From a virus: DNA of 26,488 nt. Shown here piece after piece: positions 3,800-26,140 of this stretch. The notes below the pieces were generated by a model that ran no database searches, was not told where the DNA came from, and saw nothing but the letters and a program-made list of their open reading frames with translations. The stretch covers positions 1-26,488 of IMG/VR virus record IMGVR_UViG_3300027805_000075; one strand, 5' to 3'. The translations under genes and the position numbers were made by a program. How positions within the stretch are numbered: position 1 is the first letter of the stretch; every line of letters starts with the position of its first letter.

Positions 3800-4407
3800 T
3801 GAAAGAAAAACGCACCATAACAGGAACAATAAATTACAGAGCCGAAGGCGAGAACATGCCAACGCAGTTGGGCGGCATTGCTGCGGTGGTAAACAGCGCA
3901 ACCGATTTGGGCTACTTCGAGGAAGTAATAGCACCGGGCGCGTTTGATTATGCGCTTAGTAAGGATTACGATATTCGCTGCTTATTTAACCACGAAAGCG
4001 AACTAATATTAGGCCGCACCAAGGCGAACACTTGCAAGGTGTTTGTAAACGCTCAGGGGAATTTGGAATACACTTGGGTACCTGATTACGAAAACCCCAC
4101 ACACGTAAGCGTAGTGCGTTCAATTATGCGCGGAGATATTACGCAGTCAAGCTTTGCGTTTACAATCCGTGAGCAAGTTTGGACAGAATCCGAAAAGTAC
4201 GGAACAATGGGTAAGCGCGTGGTGAACGTTATCGAAGATTTATTCGACGTTAGCCCTGTGACATATCCAGCCTACGAAGAAACCGAAGCCGATGCGCGCA
4301 GTATTTTGAAAATGCGCGACGAGGAAAGAGAGATAAGCGACGCCGAGCAATCAAAGGCGGACGCGGATATAATTAAATTGATTGCAATAAGATATAAAAA
4401 CTATTAA
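3799..4407 (+). CDS. Prohead protease (HK97 family, U35)
   Basis: Serine protease that removes the scaffold part of the capsid protein during head maturation. The 202-residue sequence has the family core: GYFEEVIAPGAFDYAL, then the histidine in LFNHES (H65), and the QSSFAF motif with the catalytic serine at S117 or S118. The last 40 residues are charged and helical and probably self-cleaved. I chose the ATG at 3799, giving a TGATG junction with the portal stop, over the GTG one codon earlier. It sits between portal and capsid genes as in HK97. Confidence 0.92.
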   Translation: MKEKRTITGTINYRAEGENMPTQLGGIAAVVNSATDLGYFEEVIAPGAFDYALSKDYDIRCLFNHESELILGRTKANTCKVFVNAQGNLEYTWVPDYENPTHVSVVRSIMRGDITQSSFAFTIREQVWTESEKYGTMGKRVVNVIEDLFDVSPVTYPAYEETEADARSILKMRDEEREISDAEQSKADADIIKLIAIRYKNY

Positions 4408-22621: not shown

Positions 22622-22787
22622 GAGAGTTATAGCCAGTTTGGCTGCCGTGTATCTGGCATTTGCGTTTATATTCGGAAATATAAATTCGCAGCAATGGAGC
22701 GAGGAAGGGCGATTTGCATGCGTGCTGCTATTTTGCGCAGCATTCCTAATTGTTATAATAACGAACAATGATAGTTCTAAGCGATAA
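22611..22787 (+). CDS. Small two-span membrane protein
   Basis: 58 residues: MLTKRVIASLAAVYLAFAFI begins the first membrane segment (about 6-21), then a short polar loop (NINSQQWSEEGR) and a second segment at about 35-51, with a Lys/Arg end. The start overlaps the coiled-coil gene by 11 nt and the end overlaps the DnaA-like gene by 20 nt. It may pair with the preceding anchored coiled-coil protein. No family recognised. Confidence 0.5.
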   Translation: MLTKRVIASLAAVYLAFAFIFGNINSQQWSEEGRFACVLLFCAAFLIVIITNNDSSKR

Positions 22788-23190
22788 CGGCGACCGCATC
22801 GACGTCATGGTCAACGACCAATGGTTTGCCAGCTTTAAAGATTGGCCGCAAGCCATACACTACCAGCACTATCTTAAACACGGCGGTTTGGGGACTGAAT
22901 TGGACAGATTGGGGCAAATTGTTTCCAATATCTATGGCCATAGCCCAGAGCGTTTAAAATCAAAATCTAAGCTTTCCGATTTATGCGAGGCGCGTGTAGT
23001 GTTTTCATTGATTGCGCGTTACGATTTGGAAAAAACGTTTAAAACCATTGGCGCTTGGATGAAGCGCGACCATTCAACGATTATGCACCATTTTAAAACA
23101 TACCACGATTGGCTTGCAATGCCGAATTATTACGGGAAGCAGCTTGAGAGATACGAGGCGTGTTTGAAAGTTTGGAAGGGGGGGAAATAG
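22768..23190 (+). CDS. DnaA domain IV-like DNA-binding protein
   Basis: A 140-residue protein whose second half resembles the DNA-binding domain IV of DnaA: SKLSDLCEARVVFSLIARYD at about 67-86, FKTIGAWMKRDHSTIMHHF at 91-109, with RDHST matching the DnaA signature (GxRDHxTVxH). There is no AAA+ ATPase part. The N-terminal 60 residues form a different, beta-rich domain. It is the last gene before the stretch with GGTCAC repeats, so it is a good candidate for an origin-recognition protein that recruits the primase-helicase encoded downstream. Alternatively it could act as a regulator that binds host DnaA boxes. Confidence 0.75.
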   Translation: MIVLSDNGDRIDVMVNDQWFASFKDWPQAIHYQHYLKHGGLGTELDRLGQIVSNIYGHSPERLKSKSKLSDLCEARVVFSLIARYDLEKTFKTIGAWMKRDHSTIMHHFKTYHDWLAMPNYYGKQLERYEACLKVWKGGK

Positions 23191-23191
23191 T

Positions 23192-23358
23192 GTGACCATG
23201 TGACCATTGACATACCCCCCTTATTTCTTATATACTATTATTTAGTTTAGGGGGGGGTGCCAAAAAACGGGTTTCAAAGGTCACAAAGGTCGCGAGGCTT
23301 GATTTTACTGGTGTTCAATGGTCACGCCAAAGGTCACGCATGGTTGCATTATGTTCAC
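23192..23358. other. Candidate replication origin with GGTCAC iterons
   Basis: Non-coding. GTGACC occurs at 23192 and 23200; its reverse complement GGTCAC at 23279, 23320 and 23332, each preceded by AAA or AAT. Degenerate copies are GGTCGC at 23288 and GTTCAC at 23353. Between the two orientations an inverted repeat ACCCCCC 23214-23220 / GGGGGGT 23252-23258 encloses 31 nt of A/T-rich sequence. An A/T-rich stretch with 16 A residues (23388-23403) follows. Repeats, A/T-rich DNA, a DnaA-like gene upstream and a primase-helicase downstream all fit an origin. Confidence 0.6.
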
Positions 23359-23433
23359 AAATCAATCTCTCTCTATTATCTTCGTAGAAAAAAAAAAAAA
23401 AAATTATAGTAAAATAAATAGGGATTCAGAGGT

Positions 23434-23441
23434 TATATTTG
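23434..23441 (+). promoter_or_regulatory. Candidate promoter of the structured leader RNA
   Basis: TATATTTG, an exact TAnnTTTG -7 box after the A/T-rich stretch. No clear -33 element. Transcription would start about 23447, just before the structured leader. Confidence 0.45.
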
Positions 23442-23452
23442 TGACGTTAACT

Positions 23453-23540
23453 GGAGCGTAGGAGGTTCCGAAAGTTAAAAGATATTGCCCTGTTGGATTT
23501 GTGTGCGCTCCTACCGCCGCAAATCTGATGGGGTTTTTTT
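23453..23540 (+). ncRNA. Structured leader RNA: attenuator with pseudoknot, or small RNA
   Basis: A 14-bp stem (23488-23501 with 23520-23533, four G-U pairs) is followed by seven T, the form of an intrinsic terminator, only 11 nt before the ATG at 23545. Its 18-nt loop (23502-23519) contains CGCTCCTAC, which can pair with GGAGCGTAGGAG at 23453-23464 in two competing ways (GGAGCGTA or GTAGGAG). This would make a pseudoknot. It lies 12 nt after a -7 box, so it is either a roughly 90-nt RNA or a switch controlling the genes downstream. Confidence 0.6.
23488..23540 (+). terminator. Intrinsic terminator/attenuator before the primase operon
   Basis: 14 consecutive pairs with an 18-nt loop and a T7 tail at 23534-23540. 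Being directly upstream of genes in the same direction, it would act as an attenuator unless it ends a separate RNA. Confidence 0.65.
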
Positions 23541-23544
23541 ATTT

Positions 23545-23838
23545 ATGACAAAAAAAGAAAAATTAAGAGCAGTAAACAGATTCCGCGAAGCTCTAAACGG
23601 AAACAATCAAAGCAAAATGTATGAGTATTATTTGTTCTATGATGTTGACATGCTAAGAATGTTGACCAATTTGGAGGTTGAACTATGGAAACAAGGTTAT
23701 CATATCAAAGAAAAAATATCTGAATTGATTACTAATTCAAATTTATTGAAATTAAATAATGATTTTTTGATAGAAAGATATAGGCTCACAAAAGAGTTAG
23801 ATTCAATAATAGACAGCGTCGAAAATGAAAACGACTAA
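23545..23838 (+). CDS. Small helical protein upstream of the primase
   Basis: 97 residues from the ATG at 23545. The longer frame from 23485 starts inside the terminator hairpin and is rejected. The protein is helical, Lys/Asn/Leu-rich (MTKKEKLRAVNRFREALNGN at the start, LIERYRLTKELDSIIDSVEN near the end) and A/T-rich relative to the primase gene. It overlaps the primase-helicase by 14 nt. No family recognised; a primase partner or host-directed protein are both possible. Confidence 0.55.
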   Translation: MTKKEKLRAVNRFREALNGNNQSKMYEYYLFYDVDMLRMLTNLEVELWKQGYHIKEKISELITNSNLLKLNNDFLIERYRLTKELDSIIDSVENEND

Positions 23839-26140
23839 AATATCCGTATTCGCTGGCGTGCTTGGAACGACAAAAGCCTTCGACCTGACATTGGAAGAGG
23901 TTGCAGAACGTCTTAAAACGTCATATAAGGCCGATATAGAGCATATTAGGACGCTTCCGAAGGTTGAGTACGACGAAGCGAAGAAAAAGCTTCACGCGGT
24001 CTTATTTGGAGGCATAGCGGTAAATAGAAACGATAACGACATACAGGAAGCCAGCGGGCTAATGATTACCGACTACGACCATTTACCCGAAGAGGATTAT
24101 AAACGCATTTGGGATAAACTGAAAAATGATAGCCACACGGTATTGATGTTTCGCAGCCCATCAGGTGACGGAATTAAAGCCGTTGTAAGTATTCCAAAAT
24201 CGAGTAAGGACGACTACCGCAAGAGATTTAAAGCATACGGCGATTATATAGACGAGCCGATGTTTTTTGATGTGAAAAATAGCAATATTAGCCGTTTGTG
24301 TTTTGTTTCGTACGATCCTGATTTATTCACCAATTATAACGCGCAGCCATTTACAGAAATTAACGAGCTGGAGCCATACAAACGAGCAGAACGCGCTGCC
24401 ATAATTCCGATAACCGACGAAGATAGGTTGATTGATATTGCTTTGAAATGGTTGAATAAAAACCACCCATACGGAAAGGGTAACCGTAATAATTCAGTAT
24501 TTCAGTTTGGCGGCGTTTGTTGCCGGATAGGTGTGAGCAAAGAAACATGTGAATACATAGCAACGACGCATTTGATAAACGACGATTTTGACCATAGCGA
24601 GGCAGCAGCTGCAATTCGTTCGGCATATCGAAGTAATGTGTTTAGCGAAGAGTTTTTTGAGGATGACCGGAAGCGTAAACAGATTGAAAACGCCATTCGT
24701 TCAAAAATACCAGCGCAGGAAATACAGCAGCGTTTTAGCGTTAATGACGAAGTGATAGCCGAAATTATGGGCAACACTACAAACGACATATTCTGGTCAA
24801 TTGATGGGAAGGGTAAAATATCAATAGACAGCCTAAAGTTTAAGAATTTCCTTGAAGATTCAGGATTTTTTAAATATTTCCCTGAAGGCGCTTTGATTCC
24901 AACATTTGTGAAGGTCAAATCAAATATTCTGTCATTCAGTTCGGCGGCGTTAATTAAAGAGTACATTCTGGAATATCTGGAAGAAAAAGAACCGTCTGTA
25001 TTCAATTATTGCACCAAAAACAGCGCATTGTTTACCGACCAGTTTTTAACGCTGCTAAAATCGATTGATGTTAAAATTTTACAGGACACCAAAGACACCG
25101 CGTTTATTCCATTTCTGAATGGGGTTTTAAAGGTTGACAAAGACAATACCAAGTTAATCAGCTACATTGATATTAATGGCTTTATTTGGGAGCGGCAAAT
25201 TATACAGCGCAACTGGAAGCAAACCGAGGTTATTGATAACGATTTTGCCGATTTGTGCTTGAAAGTCAGTGATAGTTACGAGGTGAGAATGCAAGCTCTA
25301 AGCACGGCGCTTGGTTATTTAATCCATAGTTACAAGGATAAGACACACCAAAAAGCCATAATTTTCAACGATCAGGAAATTGACGACAACCCAAACGGCG
25401 GAAGCGGTAAGTCGATAATGATTAACGCATTGAAAGCTTTTAAAAACGTGGTTGTTATTGACGGCAAAAAATACGACAATAAGGGCGATTTTGTTTACCA
25501 GCGAGTTAGTATTGATAGCCAAGTGTTAGCTTTTGATGACGTTCGCAGGAATTTTAATTTTGAGGATTTATTCCCATTGATTACCGAGGGAGTGACGGTT
25601 AACAGAAAAAATAAAGACGAAATATTTATCCCATTTGAGCGCAGCCCAAAGATATTGATTACTACTAACTACGTCATAAAAGGCACAGGGCATAGCCATG
25701 AGCGTAGGCGGCACGAAATAGAGTTTTACCAATATTTCAACGCAAAGCGCACCCCTATTATGGAGTACGGTAAGTTGTTGTTTGACGATTGGAGCGCAGA
25801 CGATTGGAACCGATTTGATAACTTCATGGTGTTTAACCTACAGAATTATTTAAGCTATGGGTTAATAAGCGCACCGCTTGAGAATGCCAGCCGTAAGCGT
25901 TATATACAGGAAACGTGCAGCGAGTTCGTGGAGTTTATAGAAGATTACCACTTTGACACCTATTCGCCGATATACTATAAAACTTTATTGGCTGCATTTG
26001 TGGAATCAAATAAGGAGTTTAGCAAGCTGACAGCTAAGAAATGGGGAACTTGGATGAAAATATTTATTGAGAATGATGGGCGTGACTGGCACGTTGAGAA
26101 AGACCGAGGCGGTCACTACATAAAATTATTAACAAATTAG
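23825..26140 (+). CDS. Primase-helicase: VirE_N domain plus SF3-type helicase
   Basis: Main replication enzyme. The 771 residues begin with a VirE_N/BT4734-like primase region: SGLMITDYDHLPEED with D83 and D85 as probable metal ligands, and SPSGDGIKAVVSIP at 111-124. A PriCT-like middle follows (about 200-290). The helicase part has Walker A NGGSGKS at 524-530, Walker B VLAFDD at 567-572, and the ILITTN sensor at 610-615 with the RRR near 627-629 as a possible arginine finger. Domain order and length suit D5-like replication proteins of Bacteroidota phages. No DNA polymerase gene was found, so host polymerase is presumably recruited. Confidence 0.85.
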   Translation: MKTTKISVFAGVLGTTKAFDLTLEEVAERLKTSYKADIEHIRTLPKVEYDEAKKKLHAVLFGGIAVNRNDNDIQEASGLMITDYDHLPEEDYKRIWDKLKNDSHTVLMFRSPSGDGIKAVVSIPKSSKDDYRKRFKAYGDYIDEPMFFDVKNSNISRLCFVSYDPDLFTNYNAQPFTEINELEPYKRAERAAIIPITDEDRLIDIALKWLNKNHPYGKGNRNNSVFQFGGVCCRIGVSKETCEYIATTHLINDDFDHSEAAAAIRSAYRSNVFSEEFFEDDRKRKQIENAIRSKIPAQEIQQRFSVNDEVIAEIMGNTTNDIFWSIDGKGKISIDSLKFKNFLEDSGFFKYFPEGALIPTFVKVKSNILSFSSAALIKEYILEYLEEKEPSVFNYCTKNSALFTDQFLTLLKSIDVKILQDTKDTAFIPFLNGVLKVDKDNTKLISYIDINGFIWERQIIQRNWKQTEVIDNDFADLCLKVSDSYEVRMQALSTALGYLIHSYKDKTHQKAIIFNDQEIDDNPNGGSGKSIMINALKAFKNVVVIDGKKYDNKGDFVYQRVSIDSQVLAFDDVRRNFNFEDLFPLITEGVTVNRKNKDEIFIPFERSPKILITTNYVIKGTGHSHERRRHEIEFYQYFNAKRTPIMEYGKLLFDDWSADDWNRFDNFMVFNLQNYLSYGLISAPLENASRKRYIQETCSEFVEFIEDYHFDTYSPIYYKTLLAAFVESNKEFSKLTAKKWGTWMKIFIENDGRDWHVEKDRGGHYIKLLTN

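Follow-up and report, generated by a model that had tools for sequence, protein, structure and literature searches.

A covarying RNA element with matched yet changeable kissing loops recurs in many phage contigs

We show that a 95-nt element lying upstream of a primase gene in a phage record belongs to a covarying RNA family of Bacteroidota phages with a conserved kissing-loop pairing, that this family recurs in many phage contigs, and that the element is more than a product of chance. What is new is an RNA family, strongly covarying and unmatched in Rfam, whose terminator hairpin has a loop that complements the loop of an upstream hairpin, in sequences that differ between phages. As a leader RNA for which attenuation is probable, it falls within a known kind of regulator, and no description of this architecture was found in the open-access literature that we searched. 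Our favored interpretation, for which the arguments on either side weigh nearly the same, is that the element is a leader RNA with a terminator of its own at the 3' end and that it controls how much transcription continues into the replication operon, probably through sequence-specific RNA-RNA recognition similar to that of phage P4 CI RNA, with a step that acts in trans.

The window, i.e., the whole stretch of DNA analyzed, is a phage record 26,488 bases long, in which genes for terminase, portal, RecT-like, exonuclease, helicase and primase proteins were identified. The element occupies positions 23446–23540, between a gene encoding a DnaA C-domain (22768–23190), for which tblastn against phages gave no match, and the primase gene (23825–26140, + strand), whose product has matches to the domains BT4734-like_N, PriCT_1 and DUF5906. 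From 5' to 3' the parts of this region, all on the + strand, are a TATATTTG box, hairpin 1, a conserved linker, the terminator hairpin 2, a run of seven T residues (T7) and an ATG. The box (23434–23441), a promoter −7 element, matches the Bacteroidota consensus TAnnTTTG (PMC6847099). Since the G of the Flavobacterium box is numbered −5 (PMC6847099), the predicted transcription start is 23446, the first base of the conserved block; this start is inferred from sequence alone, by the position of the box. Hairpin 1 (23447–23478; TTAACT/AGTTAA and GGA/TCC with a 3-nt bulge) folds, has covarying pairs in the alignment described below as A1, and presents loop A, GTAGGAG (23458–23464). The unpaired linker AAGATATT (23479–23486), whose columns are invariant in A1, is followed by hairpin 2, the terminator stem (23487–23533), which is supported by folding and pair counts and presents loop B, CTCCTAC (23508–23514), the complement of loop A. 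The T7 run of the putative intrinsic terminator (23534–23540) has counterparts in the aligned relatives; termination itself is inferred. The first gene downstream (23545–23838, + strand, 97 aa from its ATG) had no Pfam or PHROG match when its longer, TTG-started frame was the query. Neither loop has a second copy in the window, where each 7-mer occurs once. Five GGTCAC/GTGACC repeats, possibly iterons or operators, are also present at 23192–23337, between the DnaA C-domain gene and the promoter box.

Folding of the 131 nt at 23430–23560 gave −38.8 kcal/mol, compared to −27.06 ± 3.24 for 200 shuffles (z −3.62), none of which was as low. A first-pass annotation, made from the letters alone, had described a T7-tailed terminator 11 nt before a start codon, whose loop could pair with an upstream GGAGCGTAGGAG segment in two mutually exclusive registers that might switch states. 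The terminator and its pairing partner both held, with the segment located at 23453–23464 and with the clarification that 11 nt is the gap from the stem to the ATG at 23545, the gap from the T-run being 4 nt. Both registers, GGAGCG × CGCTCC and GTAGGAG × CTCCTAC, are present in the window. In 11 distinct relatives, all 77 cells of GTAGGAG × CTCCTAC pair and two of its seven pairs are changed on both sides, whereas only 80% of 65 cells pair in GGAGCG × CGCTCC, which was rejected as a conserved feature as one of its pairs is broken in 9 and another in 4 of the 11 relatives. Only one register being conserved, the proposed two-register switch is unsupported beyond the window sequence. A transient alternative remains possible there, because for prefixes of 66–76 nt the best fold is a version of GGAGCG × CGCTCC. 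Similarly, the test for a conserved, mutually exclusive antiterminator fold was not met for that register, the alternative that we examined. The annotation's peptides VRSYRRKSDGVF and VCAPTAANLMGFF occur in forward frames 0 and 1, and all three forward frames across the element contain a stop.

High levels of pairing were found in A1, an alignment of 11 distinct type I copies collected by pattern scans together with the contig whose primase is 79% identical to that of the window (L004), and not filtered for loop complementarity. In that contig the element is nearly unchanged and the small gene between element and primase is missing. A total of 94.6% of 373 cells pair in A1 and 8 of 34 pairs are changed on both sides, and none of 500 shuffles reached either value. 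Three type I loop pairs were identified: GTAGGAG/CTCCTAC, GTAAGAG/CTCTTAC and GTAGGAT/ATCCTAC. Other measures were less decisive. The "further standard pair types" of A1 were no higher than in shuffles (460 of 500 were at least equal), the count of doubly changed pairs in the kissing helix alone was reached by 24 of 500 shuffles, and one slid version of that helix scored slightly above the real covariation (0.218 vs. 0.208). Four of the loci examined (L137, L142, L145 and L163) have an additional promoter box and an AGAGGG...CCCTCT hairpin with a T-run directly 5' of the element, ~30–80 nt before it, and no box of the element's own just upstream.

Searches beyond the type I copies considerably extended the family. 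Model R1, applied to 98 sources, gave 18 strong matches (two from one contig). A further nine were weak (E 0.03 to 4.6), and each of these is upstream of a primase match and adjoins a TATATTTG box; by eye they have the same plan and other loops. A descriptor that required a promoter box, two hairpins, a T-run and a loop complement, and used no other sequence, had 25 distinct matches in 336 loci and 57 in 458 loci, 54 of the 57 with the family linker, compared to three, two and two matches per pass over shuffled segments. The shuffle control is somewhat low because it considered one T-run per promoter box and the real scan considered every T-run. Two of the three matches without the family linker look real, that in L413 and a second, different element in L373. 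A looser descriptor returned 253 candidates, mostly chance by eye, and was dropped.

Type II elements have the linker AAGGTATTATT where type I has AAGATATT, and its columns are invariant in A2, an alignment of 45 distinct type II elements. These were retained from 54 candidates of a linker pattern scan, a lower bound for the type, by filtering for loop complementarity; L398, L365, L436 and L411 were left out as judged chance, L403 for its cut T-run, and L016, L029, L042 and L035 as other loop types. In A2, 99.3% of 1215 cells pair, 23 of 27 pairs are changed on both sides, doubly changed cells number 296 (80.2 ± 7.6 in shuffles), and the covariation score is 0.716 (0.214 in shuffles), with slid structures pairing at only 31–46%. 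The kissing helix pairs in 98.9% of 360 cells, with six of eight pairs covarying and zero G-U pairs. By "further standard pair types" the kissing helix was not above shuffles (500/500) and A2 as a whole was mildly so (31/500). Model R2, which contains no kissing pairs, had 44 matches in 100 loci, 36 of them distinct, and in every one of the 44 the loops are exactly complementary over 8 or 9 nt and a TA..TTTG box is just upstream. This is supportive, not independent, evidence because the training set of R2 had been filtered for the complement; L040, which is outside that set, was found at E 1.2e-7. More generally, loop pairing in the descriptor sets and in A2 is partly by choice as both were selected for loop complementarity. 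Locus counts should be read with the knowledge that L003 and L004 are one contig and that many loci are near-duplicates. One strong R2 match each was found in 20 of 25 records, and the remaining five have other types or none.

No match at the gathering cut-off was found in Rfam 15 for the window or for eight element-bearing loci, and the best of nine below the cut-off, mir-19 (E 0.03, 22.6 bits vs. 50 required), was judged chance. Named relatives of the window element sought by blastn amounted to one phage and one plasmid match (E 4 and 3), inside coding genes and with 27–28% query cover, and the L442 element had no blastn match. The first-pass annotation had suggested an attenuator or small RNA before the primase operon, and this is supported by the covariation, promoter box, terminator and recurrence, with expression and termination inferred. 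One of its refuting conditions, an absence of covariation in homologs, does not hold, as covariation was found in phage homologs; the comparison to Rfam that it called for yielded no family at the gathering cut-off. Its expectation of a widespread element held for phage records; a single scan of bacterial genomes with the type I linker pattern gave six matches, none with the element structure.

The position of the element relative to genes is highly regular. The first start codon is 0–22 nt past the T-run in 58 of the 61 elements examined, the exceptions being L440 (44 nt), L403 (cut T-run) and L417 (end of the locus). A GC-rich hairpin with a T-run lies between promoter and first gene, which meets one criterion for an intrinsic-terminator attenuator in the general sense. 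First genes include those for primase, DUF6291 proteins, a NUMOD4/HNH_3 endonuclease and a T5orf172 protein, and annotations downstream in some named-phage relatives include a replisome organizer, a DnaD-like helicase loader and a replication protein; where identified, the downstream genes are early or replication genes. HNH-like genes are found between element and primase in L008, L035, L036, L045, L046 and L051, the product in L008 matching NUMOD4 and HNH_3. In L373, two elements with different loops (1588–1682 and 3956–4046) are 2.3 kb apart, before two different genes.

Among 18 named or GenBank phage records of which stretches were scanned, eight have the element and none was found in the scanned part of the other ten. 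The eight are the Flavobacterium phages tooticki6-1, hattifnatt9-1, lillamy9-1, stinky9-1, snork6-1 and elemoA_1-9A, Cellulophaga phage phi18:3, whose annotation includes a tyrosine recombinase and a repressor, and Olleya phage Harreka_1. Elements are shared among the first five, which are closely related. There are three elements, each with a different loop, in hattifnatt9-1, before a helicase gene, a NUMOD4 endonuclease gene and replication genes, and two each in tooticki6-1, stinky9-1 and snork6-1. The annotated start of the hattifnatt9-1 helicase gp034 (L464, position 9441) falls within hairpin 2 of an element, and an ATG past the T-run opens the same frame (MTDYEKF). This is the one case that fits the first-pass suggestion of a widespread RNA mis-annotated as protein, and the element explains at least this false N-terminus in phage annotation. 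Isolated phages that infect Flavobacterium, Cellulophaga and Olleya carry the element, which makes it testable.

At least 27 different matched loop pairs were counted, although for those found by descriptor the match itself was the criterion. L036 and L046 have primases that are 100% identical over 774 residues and loops that differ (GGTTCGAC vs. GGTCTCAC). L051 and L036 are 97% identical in the 128 nt before the element and 94% identical in the 200 nt after it, versus 69% within it, with the structure kept, and L046 has the same pattern against both. This divergence is not general. The element of L443/L381 differs little from its flanks (91% vs. 93% and 99%), that of L362/L342, which have different loops, is 92% identical, above its flanks (86% and 72%), and in several pairs with different loops the element is equally or more alike than the flanks. 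Elements within one genome, of which there may be two or three, differ in their loops. Recognition is read as being of self because A and B are matched within each element, mostly absent elsewhere in the loci examined, and different among the elements of one genome. A copy of loop A directly before the downstream start codon was identified for three loop groups, AATGCAG (3/3 elements), GTTGCAG (1/1) and CCTTCGAC (6/8), and is absent for the window and most loop groups. Across all elements there are 18 own-loop matches near ORF starts, compared to a mean of 5.3 and a maximum of 13 in 50 permuted loop sets; some of the 18 fall inside other genes, and the AATGCAG copies are missing from them because the downstream start is TTG. 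The type I loop A GTAGGAT (L084, 4625–4717) is part of the type II loop B GTAGGATG (L357, 5156–5250), as though the loops had swapped places, which may be chance.

In the model that we favor, the leader would be made from its own promoter and ended by its built-in intrinsic terminator just before the first gene. This should yield both a ~95-nt short RNA and, by read-through, an mRNA carrying the primase genes; the existence of both is inferred. Some 7 to 9 Watson-Crick pairs would join loop A of hairpin 1 to loop B in the terminator hairpin, and the state of that pairing would set how frequently RNA polymerase reads through. Once released, the short RNA would expose its A and B to subsequent transcripts that have identical loops and bias them towards termination, making the operon self-limiting and indifferent to leaders with other loops. 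We likewise infer that the terminator is functional and regulated, which way the effect goes, and that it operates in trans. Partial or regulated read-through is inferred because the terminator immediately precedes replication genes and leaves almost no space downstream for a second promoter. What the model rests on, namely the conservation of the element, its covarying structure, its box and terminator anatomy with the box placing the predicted start at the first base, its early-gene position and its differing yet matched loops, is established by the comparisons. It is also supported by the start codon spacing, the single strong element of most records, the element of L036, L046 and L051 being less alike than its flanks with different loops beside identical primases, the different loops within one genome, the loop A repeats before starts in three loop groups, and the motifs near the primase start in element-less relatives that are described below.

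Several points count against this model. Data on expression and termination are lacking, the element is absent from 42 of the 66 primase relatives whose upstream sequence is long enough, most loops including that of the window have no further A copy before the start codon, unlike P4, and pairs such as L362/L342 are as alike in the element as in the flanks or more so. Pairing of A and B inside one molecule may suffice without any action in trans. Lysogen immunity is not indicated for the 24 records related to the window, as no integrase or resolvase family was found in them. A bolder reading, which we offer as no more than a possibility, is RNA-only self-recognition, with the at least 27 matched loop pairs being specificity groups of Bacteroidota phages. 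The short RNA of a resident or earlier-replicated phage would kiss a nascent leader with the same loop and stop its replication operon, resulting in superinfection exclusion or copy control, and phages would change group by module exchange and may have several independent channels per genome. If the loops do act in trans, they would represent a large natural set of orthogonal RNA regulators and protein-free mutual recognition among related phages; if they act only in cis, they would represent a new way of tuning a terminator.

The strongest rival, to which we give a clearly lower chance than to the favored model, is such a cis-only attenuator, in which no RNA acts in trans and the kissing pair is either a tertiary lock that sets terminator strength or timing or a feature recognized by RNA polymerase itself or by a protein of phage or host. 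Under this view the loops vary because any matched pair works and the several elements of one genome must not cross-pair. In its favor, only the match of A and B within an element is constant throughout, the bases of the linker and internal loop are conserved despite being unpaired, and multiple elements of one genome have different loops. By itself, however, it leaves unexplained both the divergence of the module between near-identical flanks and the A copies before start codons in three groups. Those copies, together with the distance of only 0–22 nt from terminator to start codon and the finding that start-region structure tunes initiation in Flavobacterium johnsoniae (PMC6847099), favor translational or dual control, in which the short RNA or leader acts on the downstream start region, as with Gifsy-1 IsrK, through pairing of B with the A copy or through occlusion of the start site by the terminator hairpin. 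We regard this as unlikely since the A copy is absent from the window and most other loop groups.

Less likely still is a discrete trans-acting or multimerizing phage RNA, either host-directed or assembled through its loops in the manner of packaging RNA, for which the downstream gene would be incidental. Its own promoter box, the hairpins at both ends, loops able to pair between molecules and the great diversity of the first genes downstream are consistent with this; against it are the near-constant distance to downstream start codons, the early or replication genes where identified, and the absence of an Rfam match. Rfam has families for both packaging RNA and phage antisense RNAs. An ordinary terminator with chance loop complementarity can be practically dismissed. 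Intrinsic terminators are common and the descriptor does give two to three matches per shuffled pass, but there are 57 distinct real matches, 54 with the family linker, and covariation far above shuffles and slid controls contradicts a chance reading.

The closest known counterpart may be the CI RNA of phage P4, which pairs with seqA upstream and seqC downstream to cause premature termination before replication genes (PMC4825925). Both are same-strand RNAs in the leader of a replication operon, with complementary stretches on one transcript (PMC4825925), and both involve premature termination before replication genes, which is inferred for the present element. The P4-type test of a loop complementary to an upstream site on the same transcript is met by loop B and loop A in the aligned elements. 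The test of a second complementary site downstream, before replication genes, failed for the window and for most loops, so we do not class the element as a P4 CI member: its upstream partner is always present, whereas a downstream copy exists in three loop groups only. In addition, CI is a processed RNA, whereas the present element seems to be started by a promoter and ended by an intrinsic terminator, and the two have no common sequence family. IsrK of Gifsy-1 is a short, terminator-ended RNA, and its read-through form serves as the mRNA of phage genes (PMC4825925), much like the two products inferred here. It differs in activating translation of its own read-through form (PMC4825925), and self-matching, hypervariable loops are not described for it in the relevant sections of that paper. 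The plasmid attenuators pT181 and ColE1 RNA I/II control replication through loop-loop recognition of changeable specificity; their partner is an antisense RNA from the other strand, whereas both loops of the present element are in one RNA. The put RNA of HK022 consists of two hairpins soon after an early phage promoter and acts on RNA polymerase against later terminators, and it is not known to have a T-run of its own. The present element shares the two hairpins near an early phage promoter and differs in having its own T-run.

Relatives of the primase operon without the element appear to be controlled in another way. Of 80 primase relatives, 14 have <600 nt upstream, and among the other 66 the element is present in 24 and absent in 42. 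The last GTCAC/GTGAC motif is 19–49 nt from the primase start in all 38 element-less loci examined (the 42 without L037, L062, L079 and L080). By comparison, 17 of the 19 element-bearing loci used (18 of the 24 plus the window) have it ≥59 nt upstream of the box, the exceptions being L005 (10 nt) and L004 (none within 400 nt). We infer from this that the operon is controlled by an operator-type promoter in some relatives and by the RNA leader in others. L079, L080 and L062 have, immediately 5' of the primase, a further terminator-like hairpin with a loop complementary to the sequence that follows its T-run; in L079 the loop is GACACTG and its complement, CAGTGTC, is between the T-run and the primase start.
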